A DNA stretch of 45,814 bases, taken from assembly GCA_902510995.1 (NCBI GenBank), contig CABXDL010000008.1, forward strand, positions 1 to 45,814. Reading direction: 5' to 3'. Source of the DNA: an uncultured Candidatus Actinomarina sp. Its GTDB lineage: Bacteria; Actinomycetota; Acidimicrobiia; Actinomarinales; Actinomarinaceae. Both the position numbers and the translations under genes were made by a program. The notes under the pieces are model-generated. The model worked only from the letters and a program-made list of their open reading frames with translations. It made no database searches and was not told the origin of the DNA. Shown here piece after piece: positions 16,424 through 43,413 of the stretch (position 1 is the stretch's first letter; every line of letters starts with the position of its first letter).

Positions 16424-17880
16424 TTTTTTGATCTCTCTATAGCTTTATTCCATTTAGTTAAATGATTCTTTCTTGTTTCTGTATTCATATTAGGAGCCCA
16501 AGAAGAAGGGTTATTGAATTTAATATCGACTTCATTTATATTTATTTTATTTAAAAATATATATGAAGCTAAAGCTGCTCCATATGCTGTAATTTCTTTT
16601 ATTTCTCTAGCTACTATATTTTTATTTAATATATCAGCTTGAAATTGCATAAGTAAATTGTTTTCTACCATGCCTCCATCAACTTTTAATTCATTAAAAG
16701 TTATGCCTAAATCTTTTTCCATTGATTCTAGAAGTTCATAACTTTGATACGCAACACTTTCAAGTACTGCTCTTGATATATGATGTTTATTAGAATGTCT
16801 CGATAGACCAACTAATACTCCACGAGCTGTTGGGTCCCAATGAGGTGAAAATAATCCAGAAAATGCAGGTACGAAATAAACTCCACCATTATCTTTCACG
16901 GATAATGCTATTTTTTCTATTTCTTCACTAGTTTCTATAATATTTAAATTATCTCTTAACCATTGAACACCAGCACCCGCTATTGCAACTGATCCTTCAA
17001 TAGCGTAATTAGGTTTATCGTTTCCATATTGATAGGCAATAGTTGTAAGTAAACCATTTTTAGAATATACAATATCTTCACCTGTATTTGTTAGAGCAAA
17101 ACATCCAGTACCGTAAGTATTTTTAACATTTCCTTTTGTAAAGCAATGCTGCCCAAACAAGGAAGCTTGTTGGTCTCCCATTACAGCTGTAATTGGGATC
17201 TCATTAAGTATATTTTTACTAAATCCAAACTCGGATAATGAAGGCTTAACATTAGCTAAAGAATCTACAGGGATATTATATTTATTCAATATATTTTCAT
17301 TCCAGCGGAGAGATTCAATATCAAACATTAAAGTTCTACTTGCATTTGTAACATCAGTTTGAAACGTACCAGTTAACTTATAAATTATCCAAGTATCTAT
17401 CGTACCAAATATTACATCATTCCTATCTAGACTTGTTTTAATTTCAGGTACATTTTTTATAAGCCAGATTATTTTTGATAATGAGAAATAAGTAGCTACT
17501 GGTAACCCTGTTTTAGATAAATCATTTCTAATAGATTCATCCTTCATAATTTCTTCGCAGATATCTTGAGTGCGTGTATCTTGCCAAACTATTGCATTAT
17601 AAAATGGTTTTCCAGTAGATTTTGACCAAGCTATAGTTGTTTCTCTTTGGTTTGTAATTCCTAAAGATTTTATTTTCTTAATATCAAATCTACTTGAAAC
17701 TTCATTTATGGTTTTAACTACGCTATCCCATATTTCTTCAGGGTCGTGTTCAACACAGTTCTCAGAAGGAAAATATTGATTAAATTCAATTTGATGTTGA
17801 TCTTCGACATTTCCGTTTTGATCAAATACAATAAATCTACTACTTGTTGTACCTTGATCTATAGATGCAAAGTATTCCAT
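16414..17880 (-). CDS. glpK: Glycerol kinase
   Basis: Phosphorylates glycerol to sn-glycerol 3-phosphate in the cytoplasm, feeding lipid synthesis or glycolysis. The FGGY-kinase fold is clear: the N-terminal phosphate loop ASIDQGTTSSRFIVFD, LGITNQRETTIAW, AIVWQDTRTQDIC, the second nucleotide-binding region KNTYGTGCFALTNTG, and the C-terminal LKVDGGMVENNLLMQFQADIL. About 488 residues, as usual. The ATG at 17880 is chosen over the TTG one codon upstream. It heads an overlapping set glpK, doxX-like, GH1. No glycerol facilitator or regulator is adjacent. Confidence 0.97.
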   Translation of the reverse strand: MEYFASIDQGTTSSRFIVFDQNGNVEDQHQIEFNQYFPSENCVEHDPEEIWDSVVKTINEVSSRFDIKKIKSLGITNQRETTIAWSKSTGKPFYNAIVWQDTRTQDICEEIMKDESIRNDLSKTGLPVATYFSLSKIIWLIKNVPEIKTSLDRNDVIFGTIDTWIIYKLTGTFQTDVTNASRTLMFDIESLRWNENILNKYNIPVDSLANVKPSLSEFGFSKNILNEIPITAVMGDQQASLFGQHCFTKGNVKNTYGTGCFALTNTGEDIVYSKNGLLTTIAYQYGNDKPNYAIEGSVAIAGAGVQWLRDNLNIIETSEEIEKIALSVKDNGGVYFVPAFSGLFSPHWDPTARGVLVGLSRHSNKHHISRAVLESVAYQSYELLESMEKDLGITFNELKVDGGMVENNLLMQFQADILNKNIVAREIKEITAYGAALASYIFLNKININEVDIKFNNPSSWAPNMNTETRKNHLTKWNKAIERSKKWI

Positions 17881-30889: not shown

Positions 30890-31333
30890 ATGAAAAAATT
30901 ATATTTTTTATTTGTTTTTATAATTTCATGTACATCCATATCTGATACTGATTTTTACAATGTATCAAATGTTGAGTTAACATATCAAAATTTAAACGGT
31001 AATTTTATTAGTGAAGACCTTACAGATAAAAGTACAATAATTATATTTTGGGCAGATTACTGAGGAATCTGTAGACAGGAGTTACCTGTCTTAGAGGCAA
31101 ATATAGATACTTTATTAATAAAATATGATGTGATTGCTTTAGCACATAGTGATTTAGAATCTACCAACTATTGGGTAGAAAAAAATCTTATTGGAAAATT
31201 AAATATCGGAATTTCGACAGATGAAATTAGAGATAAATATAAAGTAATAGGACAACCTCTAACAATAATTTTAAACACGGATGGTGAAGTTATTTTTAGA
31301 GAATATGGATATATACCTACAAATGATTTCTAA
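30890..31333 (+). CDS. Candidate selenoprotein: TlpA/ResA-like thioredoxin lipoprotein with UGIC active site
   Basis: One continuous frame of 148 codons interrupted only by an in-frame TGA at 31061-31063 (codon 58). The N-terminus is a lipoprotein signal (lipobox FIISC, Cys14). The TGA falls exactly where the first active-site cysteine belongs: IIFWADY-TGA-GICRQELPVLE against the usual FWASWCGPC-R-x-E-x-P. After it come the thioredoxin strands and the cis-proline loop VIGQPLTIILNTDGEVIFRE. If TGA is selenocysteine the redox motif is U58-G-I-C61, in a membrane-anchored thiol-disulfide oxidoreductase. TGG encodes Trp in the same gene, and TGA ends other genes here, so general recoding is unlikely. 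A SECIS-like hairpin follows. Alternatives are a nonsense mutation or a base error. Confidence 0.72.
31061..31095 (+). promoter_or_regulatory. TGA codon with SECIS-like hairpin
   Basis: A 7-bp stem AGACAGG/CCTGTCT (31073-31079 with 31085-31091) is closed by the loop AGTTA, with a lower TCT/AGA stem (31068-31070 with 31093-31095) across a small internal loop. The apical loop begins 16 bases after the TGA and has G at its second position, followed by T. As I recall the bacterial SECIS model (loop 16-37 bases from UGA, G within the first two loop bases), this fits. Confidence 0.6.
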
Positions 31334-31405: not shown

Positions 31406-32536
31406 GTGAAGAAAACATTTATAATTCTACTCTCTCTTACTATGTTGATTACTGCTTGCGGTGGGTCAACAGAAGAAGTTGTAGAAGAACCTGCAGTTGT
31501 TGAAGAAGTCGAGACTCTGGATTCTCCAGCGGTTACACAAGCAGTAGTTTTAGATAAAATTACATTCGGTTTCATTCCAAGTGCAGAACAAGCAGATCTT
31601 CAAGATAATATTAAACCACTGATGAAAGTTTTATCTGATGGACTTGGTATTGAAGTTGAAGGTTTTGTTACTAGTGATTTTTCGGGATTGTTAGTTGCTA
31701 TGGGATCAGGTCAAGCTGATATTGGCGCATTTAATACATTAGGTTATGTTAATGCTTTAAATGTATTCCCAAAAAGAATTGAAGCAATTGCAAAAGTAGT
31801 TAGATATGGATCAGGTTCCTATCATGCTAACTTTTGGACAACTGATCCAAGCGTATGTGAATCCCCACCAGTAATTGGTGCATTTGAAAATATAGACGGT
31901 GTTCCACAACTCATTCTGGGTTCTGAAACTGAGTCTCCAGATGTTAAAGCTTTACAGGTTGGGTGGACATTTGGTGATAGTGGAAAAATTCCAGAAGTTA
32001 GAAATATTGATGGTGTTGATGTAACAGTCAGCCCAGGATACGCATGTAATGCTGATTTAAATGTATTAAGGGGTGAGGTAGTATTGTTTGTTGAAGAAGG
32101 TTCAACATCTGGTTATCTCTATCCATCATTACAACTGAAAAATATGGGTATTGATTATACAAAAGATATAACACAGGTTTTTGCAGGATCGCATGATGGA
32201 GTTATTTCCGGATTATATAATGGCGATGCAAAATTTGGAGTTACCTATGACGATGCAAGAAGATCACTAAGGAAAACTAATCCTGACGTTGGTGAAAAAG
32301 TTATTGCTATAGGTATCTCAGCAGAAATACCAAACGATGTTGTTGCAGTAAGGTCTGACTTGCCAGAAGATATTAAAGGTAAGATTTATCAAATTTTATC
32401 TGATTATATGGCAACAGATGAAGGCGCAGCAGTAATGGATGAAATCTATGGGTGGACAGATGTCGTGCCTGCAGATAATGCAGAATTTGATGTTGTAAAA
32501 CAAGCAGCAGAAGAATTCGGACTCTACGACGAATAA
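31406..32536 (+). CDS. phnD: Phosphonate-type ABC transporter substrate-binding lipoprotein
   Basis: Extracytoplasmic binding protein of a PhnCDE-type importer, 376 residues. The lipobox LITAC (Cys18) is followed by an acidic linker. The binding domain begins ITFGFIPSAEQADLQDNIKP, a clear PhnD-type start, and has SGQADIGAFNTLGYV, GSTSGYLYPSLQLKNMGID and FGVTYDDARRSL. The start is the GTG at 31406 with a strong ribosome-binding site (CGGAGG). It is followed by a terminator and then phnC and two phnE genes. The ligand may be phosphonate, phosphite or phosphate ester. No C-P lyase or phosphonatase gene is in the window. Confidence 0.9.
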   Translation: MKKTFIILLSLTMLITACGGSTEEVVEEPAVVEEVETLDSPAVTQAVVLDKITFGFIPSAEQADLQDNIKPLMKVLSDGLGIEVEGFVTSDFSGLLVAMGSGQADIGAFNTLGYVNALNVFPKRIEAIAKVVRYGSGSYHANFWTTDPSVCESPPVIGAFENIDGVPQLILGSETESPDVKALQVGWTFGDSGKIPEVRNIDGVDVTVSPGYACNADLNVLRGEVVLFVEEGSTSGYLYPSLQLKNMGIDYTKDITQVFAGSHDGVISGLYNGDAKFGVTYDDARRSLRKTNPDVGEKVIAIGISAEIPNDVVAVRSDLPEDIKGKIYQILSDYMATDEGAAVMDEIYGWTDVVPADNAEFDVVKQAAEEFGLYDE

Positions 32537-32543
32537 TAGATTT

Positions 32544-32581
32544 TTCAACCGGGTTGATTATTCAACCCGGTTGAATTTTTT
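32544..32581 (+). terminator. Intra-operon terminator between phnD and phnC
   Basis: A perfect 14-bp stem (TTCAACCGGGTTGA / TCAACCCGGTTGAA) with a TTAT loop is followed by six T. It lies between phnD and phnC, so it likely attenuates transcription and raises binding-protein levels over membrane components. Each arm is itself a near-perfect palindrome around its centre. Confidence 0.9.
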
Positions 32582-32586
32582 ATATT

Positions 32587-33354
32587 ATGATAAAATTTGA
32601 AAAAATTAGCGTTACATACCCTGGTGGTGTTGAAGCTTTAAAAGACATAGATCTTGAAATCAATGAAGGTGACTTTATTATTATTGTTGGTCTATCGGGA
32701 GCAGGAAAATCTACTCTTTTAAGAACAATAAACAATTTAGTTAAACCTACTAAAGGAATTGTTTATTTAGAAAATAAGAATGTTACTAATGCTAGTAAGA
32801 AGGATTTAAAAAAGATTCGATCAGAAATTGGAATGATTTTTCAAACCTTTAATTTAGTTAATAGATCTACTGTTCTAAAAAACGTACTAACGGGAAGGCT
32901 TAGTAATGTTTCAACTTTTAGATCAATTTTTGGACTTTGGCCTAAAGAACAAAAACAAATGGCCTTTGAAGCACTTAACCAGGTTGAAATTCTTGAAAAA
33001 GCTTATGTACGTGCATCAAATTTATCAGGAGGTCAACAACAACGTGTTGGTATAGCAAGAGCTTTATCTCAAAAACCGAAAGTAATGCTAGCAGATGAAC
33101 CTGTTGCATCTTTGGATCCAATAACCTCAAGAGTTGTTATGAGTTATTTAAAAAAAATTAATACAGAATTAGGAATTACAACAATTGTAAATTTACATTT
33201 TCTTGATTTAGCAAAAGAGTTTGGAGATCGGTTAATTGGATTAAGAGACGGGGAACTAGTGTTCGATGGTAGCGTAAATGATGTTTCAGATGAAGATTTT
33301 GAAAAAATTTATGGCAGATCCATTAAGTCATCTGATTTAATTGGTAATGATTAA
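32587..33354 (+). CDS. phnC: Phosphonate-type ABC transporter ATP-binding protein
   Basis: Cytoplasmic ATPase of the importer, 255 residues. Walker A GLSGAGKSTLLRTI (residues about 38-47), Q-loop MIFQTFNLV, signature LSGGQQQRVGIARAL, Walker B VMLADEPVASLDP and the switch histidine in IVNLHFLDLAKEFGDR, which is typical of PhnC. It begins 6 bases after the terminator U-tract. Its end overlaps the following permease by 8 bases, so the three downstream genes are translationally coupled. Confidence 0.96.
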   Translation: MIKFEKISVTYPGGVEALKDIDLEINEGDFIIIVGLSGAGKSTLLRTINNLVKPTKGIVYLENKNVTNASKKDLKKIRSEIGMIFQTFNLVNRSTVLKNVLTGRLSNVSTFRSIFGLWPKEQKQMAFEALNQVEILEKAYVRASNLSGGQQQRVGIARALSQKPKVMLADEPVASLDPITSRVVMSYLKKINTELGITTIVNLHFLDLAKEFGDRLIGLRDGELVFDGSVNDVSDEDFEKIYGRSIKSSDLIGND

Positions 33355-34129
33355 TATTCCTCAAAAACCTTCAGTATCTTACTTAGTTATCTTAGGAATT
33401 CCATTTGCTTTTATTTTCTCAATTTTTTCATTTTCAAGAATTGGTTTTAACTTACAAGATTTTAAAAATAATCTTGCAAATAGAGCAATCGTTACTGAAC
33501 CTCTCTTTAATCCAAAATGGAGATGGGCTTGGGAAAATACTTCTGAAGCTCTTTTAGAAACTGTTCAAATAGCGATACTAGCAAGTATCATTGGCTGTGC
33601 TTTTGCCTTGCCACTTGCCTTTTACGCTTCTAGAGCTACTAATTTAAATAAATATTCGTATTTTATTTATAAATCTTTTTTAAACCTTGTTAGAACTATT
33701 CCTGATTTGTTTTGGGCTATGTTATTTACTGTAGCTGTTGGTATTGGACCTTTTGCTGGAGTATTAGCGCTAATTATGTTTTCGCTTGCAATTATGGGCA
33801 AATTGTTATCTGAAACTATTGATAGTATAGATCCTGGACCAATGGAGGCTGCCAAAGCTACAGGTGCTTCTCATAACCAAACTGTTTTTACGTCTGCGTT
33901 GCCTCAAGTATTGCCAAACTTTACAGCATATTTTTTATATATATTTGAATTATGTATTAGAGCAAGTATTATTTTAGGTTTAGTTGGAGCAGGTGGAGTA
34001 GGTAGAATTATTGAAACACAACGTATATTTTTAAGATTTGATAGAATTTCACCAATAATTGTGATCATACTTGTAGTAGTTATTCTCATAGAACAGTTCA
34101 GTGTTTGGATAAGAAAAAAAATATTATGA
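33347..34129 (+). CDS. phnE: Phosphonate-type ABC transporter permease 1
   Basis: Integral membrane subunit of about 260 residues with five or six helices. The permease EAA loop is GPMEAAKATGASHNQTVFTSALPQ, and LVRTIPDLFWAMLFTVAVGIGPFAG is typical of PhnE. The ATG at 33347 is preferred to an upstream TTG. The stop TGA overlaps the ATG of the second permease (ATGA). Two PhnE subunits in tandem suggest a heterodimeric channel. Confidence 0.93.
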   Translation: MINIPQKPSVSYLVILGIPFAFIFSIFSFSRIGFNLQDFKNNLANRAIVTEPLFNPKWRWAWENTSEALLETVQIAILASIIGCAFALPLAFYASRATNLNKYSYFIYKSFLNLVRTIPDLFWAMLFTVAVGIGPFAGVLALIMFSLAIMGKLLSETIDSIDPGPMEAAKATGASHNQTVFTSALPQVLPNFTAYFLYIFELCIRASIILGLVGAGGVGRIIETQRIFLRFDRISPIIVIILVVVILIEQFSVWIRKKIL

Positions 34130-34929
34130 ATATTCCAGATCAGCCAATAAATCAGAAAATTTTTAAATACACAATTACTTTTATGATAGTTTTGGCATCT
34201 GTATGGTCAGCTGCTGGATTAGAAATTACTATGGATAGAATACTCGATGCACCAAGACAAATTGCTTTTTTAATTGGCGCAATGTTTCCTCTTGATATGA
34301 GTCAAGAAGCTTTTGAACGAATCATCCCTAAAGTTTTTGAATCATTATTTATTGCTTGGGCTGGAACTGTTATTGGTGCTGTGTTTAGTTTTCCTGTTTC
34401 GTTTCTAGCAGCTCATAATGTTGCTATAGGATTTGTAAGTCGTATAACCAAACAAATACTTAATGCTATTAGAGCATTTCCAGAACTAATATTAGCTTTT
34501 GTATTTTTACCAATTACAGGTTTAGGGCCGTTTACTGGTACATTAGCTGTAGGAATACATTCAATTGGCACTTTAGGTAAATTATCTTCAGAAGTTATTG
34601 AAGGAATTGATGAAGGCCCCCTCGAAGCTATTAAATCATCGGGTGGTTCTAAAATTAATGAATTAACATTTGGTGTTATACCACAAGTAATGCCAACAAT
34701 AACATCTTATTGGCTTTATAGATTTGAAATTAATTTAAGAGCATCTGCAGTTTTAGGAGTTGTAGGTGCTGGTGGTGTTGGCCAAGAATTAATAAATCAG
34801 TTAAGATTTAGAGACTTTCCAAGAGCTGGTACTGTTTTAGTTTGCACAATAGTTTTGGTTTTAGCAGCTGACACGATATCTGCTGCAATTAGAAATAGAA
34901 TCATTAAAGGTAAAATAGCTAAAAATTAA
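34126..34929 (+). CDS. phnE: Phosphonate-type ABC transporter permease 2
   Basis: Second membrane subunit, 267 residues from the ATG at 34126, which overlaps the stop of permease 1. The EAA loop is EGPLEAIKSSGGSKINELTFG, and AIRAFPELILAFVFLPITGLGPFTG parallels the first permease, showing that the two are paralogues. The C-terminal VVGAGGVGQELINQLRFRDF is diagnostic for PhnE. It ends directly against the convergent ftsK with no gap, so no terminator is visible between them. Confidence 0.93.
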   Translation: MNIPDQPINQKIFKYTITFMIVLASVWSAAGLEITMDRILDAPRQIAFLIGAMFPLDMSQEAFERIIPKVFESLFIAWAGTVIGAVFSFPVSFLAAHNVAIGFVSRITKQILNAIRAFPELILAFVFLPITGLGPFTGTLAVGIHSIGTLGKLSSEVIEGIDEGPLEAIKSSGGSKINELTFGVIPQVMPTITSYWLYRFEINLRASAVLGVVGAGGVGQELINQLRFRDFPRAGTVLVCTIVLVLAADTISAAIRNRIIKGKIAKN

Positions 34930-42675: not shown

Positions 42676-43413
42676 GTGAAAGAAATTCTAAGTAGTCTAG
42701 TTGCAGAACAACAATTATTAGACCAATATTTACAAAGTATTCCAGTTAGAAATTGGGGTACTAAAACATCATTTAAAAATTGGACTATTACAAATCATGT
42801 AAGTTATCTAGCAGGATTAGAAGATTTAGCTTTTAATGCTTTAAAGAAAAAAGGTACTTATTTTTCAAACTATAAGGGTCCTAAAGGACTTGAAAAATTT
42901 GAAAAAGAATGTATTAATAAAGGTAAAGACATGAGACCTCAAGATGTTATTGAATGGTGGAGACTTTCAAGAGCAAAAGTTGTTGAAACTTTAGCAGACT
43001 CTACACCCGGTAGAAAAATTAAATGGTGGCATAAAGAGATTGATTATCTTACATTTGCATCTTCAAAATTAGCTGAAACATGGGCTCATGGTTTAGATAT
43101 TTACAGTGGTATGAAAAAAGATCATGAAGATTCTATACGAATAGAACATGTAGCACTTTATGGATGGCTTAATTCAGAAAAAATAAGTAAAGAAAATAAA
43201 ATAAAATATCAAGATTTAAGAATTGAATTAATAGGACCAGAATACAAGGCTTGGCAATTTGGAAATGAAAAGTCTGAAAATACTATTAAAGGTAACGCTG
43301 GTGACTGGTGCAGAATTGTTACGGGAAGAGTTGATAAAAGTTTTAAGCCTAACCTAACAGCCGAAGGTGACTTTGCTAAAAAGTTTCTAAAGATAAATCA
43401 AATAAAAATTTGA
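42676..43413 (+). CDS. TIGR03084-like (DinB/MDMPI-type) metal-binding protein
   Basis: A 245-residue protein with the layout of the maleylpyruvate-isomerase/mycothiol-dependent DinB-like superfamily. The N-terminal four-helix bundle has NWTITNHVSYLAGLEDLAF (metal-ligand histidine), and LAETWAHGLDIYSGM gives the second histidine region. The C-terminal part, EYKAWQFGNEKSENTIKGNAGDWCRIVTGR, matches the SCP2-like tail. Members use mycothiol or act as unknown thiol enzymes in actinobacteria. The GTG at 42676 is the start. It heads a plus-strand set with 3-4 base gaps to the next two genes. Confidence 0.85.
   Translation: MKEILSSLVAEQQLLDQYLQSIPVRNWGTKTSFKNWTITNHVSYLAGLEDLAFNALKKKGTYFSNYKGPKGLEKFEKECINKGKDMRPQDVIEWWRLSRAKVVETLADSTPGRKIKWWHKEIDYLTFASSKLAETWAHGLDIYSGMKKDHEDSIRIEHVALYGWLNSEKISKENKIKYQDLRIELIGPEYKAWQFGNEKSENTIKGNAGDWCRIVTGRVDKSFKPNLTAEGDFAKKFLKINQIKI

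Follow-up and report, generated by a model that had tools for sequence, protein, structure and literature searches.

In Escherichia coli, SelB bound to GTP and Sec-tRNA attaches to the loop of a SECIS hairpin as the ribosome meets a UGA codon, and selenocysteine (Sec) is inserted; the hairpin of fdhF also has a bulged U near its loop. This mechanism is textbook knowledge, and bacterial SECIS (bSECIS) elements of the fdhF type lie directly downstream of the UGA, inside the open reading frame. A published model limits them to a loop of 3-9 nt, an upper stem of 4-16 bp, a UGA-to-loop distance of 16-37 nt and a minimum free energy (MFE) of at most -7.5 kcal/mol, with a consensus that has a G as the first or second loop base and, in most cases, G or U next after it (PMC13188914).

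Thioredoxin-like selenoproteins with a UxxC active site are likewise already known from marine metagenomes. The relevant passages of two studies report 321 sequences of a UxxC 'Trx-like 1' family (COG0526) in the Global Ocean Sampling data (PMC2398784) and list a UXXC thiol-disulfide isomerase-like family (cd02966) for the Sargasso Sea (PMC1088965). These are metagenomic reads, and those passages do not name Candidatus Actinomarina.

The locus described here belongs to Candidatus Actinomarina, which counts among the most abundant bacteria of the ocean and the smallest free-living ones and has a streamlined, 1-Mb genome. It lies in a window (the whole stretch of DNA analysed) of 45,814 nt. We conclude, with a probability of about 96%, that positions 31064-31095 form a bacterial SECIS element and that the UGA at 31061 is read as Sec in a TlpA/ResA-like protein. 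The UxxC active site and the TlpA/thioredoxin fold are shared with the marine metagenomic families and, compared by description, the gene is likely identical with those reads, so that part of the anonymous marine UxxC selenoproteins can be tied to a likely owner. The element itself fits the known model; of most interest are the assignment to a lineage and a set of paired amino-acid substitutions. The literature searched contains no paper with both 'Actinomarina' and 'selenocysteine' and, going by titles and abstracts, none of the papers with both 'selenoprotein' and 'Acidimicrobi' deals with the selenoproteins of this group.

The UGA codon and its host gene

Apart from the UGA, the frame of the gene is open throughout and reads MKKLYFLFVFIISC...TIIIFWADY-U-GICRQELPVLEANID...VIGQP... 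(Table 1). The protein matches Pfam AhpC-TSA (PF00578) with 32.9 bits, above the cut-off, and its relatives in the PDB are thiol-disulfide oxidoreductases, including ResA and StoA. The UGA occupies the site of the first Cys of the CxxC motif, and distant homologues carry Cys at the aligned residue; Sec at the first CxxC position of a thioredoxin fold, with Cys homologues at the same site, is the combination by which UxxC thioredoxin-like proteins are recognised. Cys-type TlpA/ResA/StoA oxidoreductases share the fold and the position of the active site but carry Cys at the site of Sec and lack the hairpin. The family NF041054 ('ResA-like WAxxUGC motif-containing protein') has the ResA-like fold and the WA-x-x-U motif in common with our protein, which differs in reading U-G-x-C and in being about half as long; at 22.1 bits against a cut-off of 300, it is not a member.

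Table 1. Positions in the window of the selenoprotein gene and of the parts of its hairpin
Feature	Position	Strand	Description	Basis
Selenoprotein gene, UGA internal	30890..31333	+	147 residues; TlpA/ResA-like thioredoxin-fold protein, putative lipoprotein	Translation with TGA = U
Predicted signal peptide with lipobox	30890..30931	+	Ends at Cys14 (MKKLYFLFVFIISC)	Read from the sequence; Cys recurs in genus homologues
In-frame UGA	31061..31063	+	Predicted Sec58, residue 1 of the redox motif (WADY-U-G-I-C)	TGA in 35/35 genus homologues
Codon of partner Cys61	31070..31072	+	UxxC motif	Cys in 35/35 genus homologues
Predicted lower stem	31068..31095	+	UCUG/UAGA, U31072 bulged	Seen in this sequence; not supported by covariation
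Outermost, 7th pair	31073..31091	+	A31073-U31091	Paired here; holds in only 13/28 distinct sequences
5' arm of conserved 6-bp SECIS upper stem	31074..31079	+	GACAGG	All cells paired in 25 distinct genus and class sequences; covariation
Apical loop	31080..31084	+	AGUUA	AGUUR in 79/82 genes; G at position 2, then U
3' arm of conserved SECIS upper stem	31085..31090	+	CCUGUC	Pairing and covariation

Other features of the window were noted in passing. Downstream of the gene and on the same strand, positions 31406-34929 encode a substrate-binding lipoprotein, an ATPase and two permeases, which by eye resemble the PhnD, PhnC and PhnE-like parts of a phosphonate/phosphite ABC transporter. Among the other in-frame TGA candidates, only that at 16640, within two short frames, shows a Cys-like motif, and no evidence supporting it was found. 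At 43411 a TGA stands between two long open frames of 248 and 255 codons that share one reading frame and look like ordinary neighbouring genes.

Structure of the hairpin

The original prediction had described a perfect 7-bp stem with a 5-base loop, beginning 10 bases after the TGA and placing the loop 16 bases past the codon. All of this is seen in the sequence: AGACAGG (31073-31079) and CCTGTCT (31085-31091) enclose AGTTA, the first stem base is the 10th after the TGA, and 16 nt (31064-31079) separate the codon from the loop. The G that it had singled out at the second loop position, next to T, as in SelB-binding hairpins, agrees with the bSECIS consensus. When the RNA from 31061 to 31095 is folded, the hairpin forms together with a lower stem of 4 bp (31068-31071 paired to 31092-31095) at -12.4 kcal/mol. 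With a 5-nt loop, a core of 6 bp (7 in this sequence) and a spacing of 16 nt, the hairpin lies within every limit of the bSECIS model, although its spacing is the lowest allowed, its AGUUR loop is its own, and it has no conserved counterpart to the bulged U of fdhF. A search of the genome with Rfam SECIS_1 (RF00031) gave no match and is uninformative, since control genomes gave none either.

Two outer parts of the structure fare less well in comparison. The outermost A-T pair is too poorly kept to count as a conserved part of the SECIS, which leaves a core of 6 bp. A short lower stem had also been predicted and does fold here, yet it shows no compensatory change among relatives and scores like shuffled controls, and we do not regard it as a conserved part either.

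The complementarity had further been judged far beyond chance. The single sequence is unusual to a more modest degree: the fold of 31061-31095 has a z-score of -2.6 and is matched by 4 of 200 shuffles, that of 31064-31101 has a z-score of -3.5, and when codons for RQELPV are drawn at random according to the codon usage of the window, all six core pairs arise in 3.3% of draws if G-U is allowed and in 0.28% if only Watson-Crick pairs are counted. It is the comparison across the genus and class that is decisive.

A short G+C-rich stem within an A+T-rich gene might also be an intrinsic terminator or attenuator. Such an element should carry a run of U, but no U tract follows the stem and a terminator scan gave no match; moreover, the hairpin sits inside conserved coding sequence and occurs only in TGA-bearing forms. 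We therefore reject an intrinsic terminator, and give a terminator or attenuator hardly any chance of being correct.

Conservation and covariation within Candidatus Actinomarina

A gene search of the order, which is represented by this single genus in our set of 42 species genomes, found the TlpA/ResA-like gene in 35, and the codon is TGA in all 35 and Cys in none. The seven genomes without the gene are 60-82% complete. An annotation pipeline that takes every UGA for a stop would break this gene in two or leave it out in most Actinomarina genomes, so annotations may lack a membrane redox protein of a lineage that is dominant in the surface ocean.

If the hairpin is a SECIS, relatives with TGA should keep it. 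The 6-bp core is paired in 35/35 genus genes and, in the rest of the class, in 46/47, the last one forming 5 of the 6 pairs; three genus relatives that were folded gave -7.6 to -11.4 kcal/mol. In the genus alignment, 92% of cells are paired in the true register, compared with 42-64% in slid controls, and the covariation score of 0.294 compares with an average of 0.189 after shuffling. At pair 3 of the core, 21 genes have C-G and 14 have G-C; pair 4 occurs as A-U, G-U or G-C, and pair 2 as A-U or G-U.

The original prediction had observed that the hairpin overlaps codons (R-Q-E-L-P-V) conserved for protein reasons, and had proposed as a check a search for covarying stem bases that keep the amino acids. 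Covarying bases that keep the pairs are indeed found in both the genus and the class. The residues are conserved as described, though two in the stem vary (Q/E/R and V/L/A), and at pair 3 the amino acids change together with the bases: all 14 forms with Glu (GAG) have Leu (CTC), and all 21 forms with Gln or Arg have Val.

Codon choice points the same way. The Glu of the stem-loop is GAG in 35/35 genes, although genes of the window use GAA for 86% of their Glu codons and GAG for 14%; at the Glu five codons downstream, 30/35 genes have GAA. Val in the stem is GTC in 20 of 21 cases and Leu is CTC in all 14, codons that account for 5% of Val and 3% of Leu codons in the window, respectively. Rare codons are thus retained only inside the stem-loop, which shows that the constraint acts on the RNA.

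These observations bear on two alternatives. One is that protein-level conservation of the R-[QER]-E-L-P-[VLA] codons alone explains the complementarity. The residues are conserved, and random coding with G-U allowed gives six pairs at the frequency stated above. Conservation of the protein does not, however, account for Gln/Glu/Arg and Val/Leu/Ala varying jointly with the pair kept, for the fixation of rare GTC, CTC and GAG, or for the lack of the stem in Cys homologues, and we regard this alternative as exceedingly improbable. The other is that the TGA is a real stop or a frame-breaking mutation, with a pseudogene remnant downstream and a hairpin that is a by-product of the conserved protein. 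TGA is an ordinary stop for 5 of the 36 long ORFs in the window, so the codon has not been reassigned wholesale. The comparison across the genus nevertheless refutes this reading: the TGA stands at the active-site codon in every homologue, the frame is kept on both sides of it, downstream residues such as C61 and the GQP motif are invariant, synonymous choices are kept only in the stem-loop, and the Sec machinery is present. There is scarcely any likelihood left for it.

Comparison across Acidimicrobiia and with cysteine homologues

A covariance model built from 25 sequences and used to search 296 Acidimicrobiia genomes matched in 107 of them at E up to 0.1. The 47 genes at the class loci that were fetched are TlpA-like, carry the motif WAEW-U-xxC and have the hairpin too. 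In the combined set of 82 genes (35 from the genus and 47 from the class), pairs 1-4 all show compensatory types, and parsimony on a tree that excludes the paired codons requires at least 4+1+1+2 = 8 independent double changes at these pairs. As complementarity is kept both in the A+T-rich genus (29% G+C in the window) and in G+C-rich class genes, base composition is not its cause. The 82 genes span this range and, with a Cys orthologue for comparison, make up a large natural set of SECIS variants that allows constraint on the coding sequence to be told apart from constraint on the RNA.

The loop departs from AGUUR in three of the 47 class genes, L195, L255 and L260 (AGCUC, AACUC and AGCUU), one of which also loses a pair; L255 has no G at the second loop position, though its genome contains a tRNA-Sec.

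By the original prediction, equal presence of the stem in relatives with TGC would have spoken against a SECIS. At 70 distinct sites of Cys homologues (TGC/TGT), no more than 4 of the 6 pairs form. The sole Cys orthologue of the class subfamily that was found (G381, L198) reads ACGTGG-AGATG-CCGATC, with 3 pairs, and no match to tRNA-Sec was obtained in its genome, which is 97% complete. Outside the genus, tRNA-Sec is present in 56 of 62 class genomes with SECIS (at E below 1e-3; 56 and 62 counted by hand from two tables) and in 94 of 192 without, giving an odds ratio of 9.7 and a p-value of about 1e-9 that is only indicative because the genomes are related. The six SECIS genomes without tRNA-Sec are incomplete assemblies (75-94% complete), and the threshold for tRNA-Sec was strict.

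Two further kinds of locus came to light in the class. In one Acidimicrobiia genus (g281), two or three Sec-TlpA genes adjoin one another, each with its own SECIS (L251 in G594:C62, L252, L253 and L254). A different TlpA-type gene (L196, G197:C154:61393-61665) has an in-frame TGA in the motif WAPF-U-SVC; the hairpin is absent at the position equivalent to the TlpA SECIS, and any SECIS would be elsewhere.

Selenocysteine machinery in the genome

The genome encodes a tRNA-Sec with UCA anticodon (G000:C13:20028-20118; 77.7 bits against a cut-off of 47), which ARAGORN also reports as tRNA-SeC (tca), and a SelA (G000:C7:44968-46206; 393 bits, cut-off 268). Directly after selA follows a gene for a SelB-type GTPase, which runs off the end of the contig in this assembly. 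A full-length relative (L033, G024) also adjoins selA and has a SelB-wing_3 domain; it scores 223 bits, below the NCBIfam cut-off of 242. SelD (372 bits, cut-off 125) is present as well and has one in-frame TGA of its own. A costly pathway has thus been kept in a 1-Mb streamlined genome.

The SECIS reading made from the sequence is supported by these genes together with the covariation, the retention of the stem with TGA and its absence with Cys. The SelB-type factor, carrying GTP and Sec-tRNA(Sec), would bind to the upper stem and to the AGUUA loop 16 nt downstream of the UGA, and the UGA at 31061 would be decoded as selenocysteine rather than as a stop during translation of the mRNA. The product would be a membrane-anchored, extracytoplasmic TlpA/ResA-like thiol-disulfide oxidoreductase with Sec as the attacking residue (U-x-x-C), held by a lipid anchor if the lipobox Cys is processed as its sequence suggests.

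UGA could also be read as Trp, Gly or Cys, through a changed code or a suppressor tRNA, leaving the hairpin without a role. This analysis found no evidence for such recoding, and the alignment of the site with a catalytic Cys and the UCA-anticodon tRNA-Sec in the genome lead us to reject it; in addition, where no tRNA-Sec match is obtained in the genome, the stem and the UGA have both been lost. Its probability is minimal.

Other genes with in-frame UGA in the genus

Further selenoproteins were sought family by family. On balance, though with clear reserve, we take Candidatus Actinomarina to be an obligate Sec user with at least four selenoproteins (TlpA-like, SelD, SelW-like and AhpD-like), all of whose SECIS loops contain GU, and in which the TlpA stem steers paired replacements (Gln/Arg-to-Glu with Val-to-Leu) that keep one base pair.

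SelD (G000:C1:109308-110225, L082) has the selenoprotein form in 39 of 41 genus genomes, its TGA having been located with tblastn. Its hairpin, UUGC-UCAA-GUU-UUGA-n-GCAA, covaries (A-U to G-C and U-A to A-U), has GU in the loop and places the loop 33 nt past the UGA; it is seen in the alignment and is absent from the MFE fold of the SelD region.

A SelW-like gene (G000:C1:79718-79933, L275) has a single in-frame TGA in 12 of 12 sampled genus genomes, followed by the hairpin CCGUGC-AGUUA-GUACGG, with a variable stem and a loop, AGUUA/G, 17 nt past the UGA. That the non-homologous TlpA and SelW-like genes have the AGUUA/G loop in common is predicted by recognition by one SelB. In an AhpD/CMD-like gene (G000:C3:22861-23112; L273, L281), all 10 matches among genus genomes have a single in-frame TGA, which comes after 'NECEY' and gives C-E-Y-U, a CxxU motif, and the associated hairpin is UCUCC-GGUC-GGAGA.
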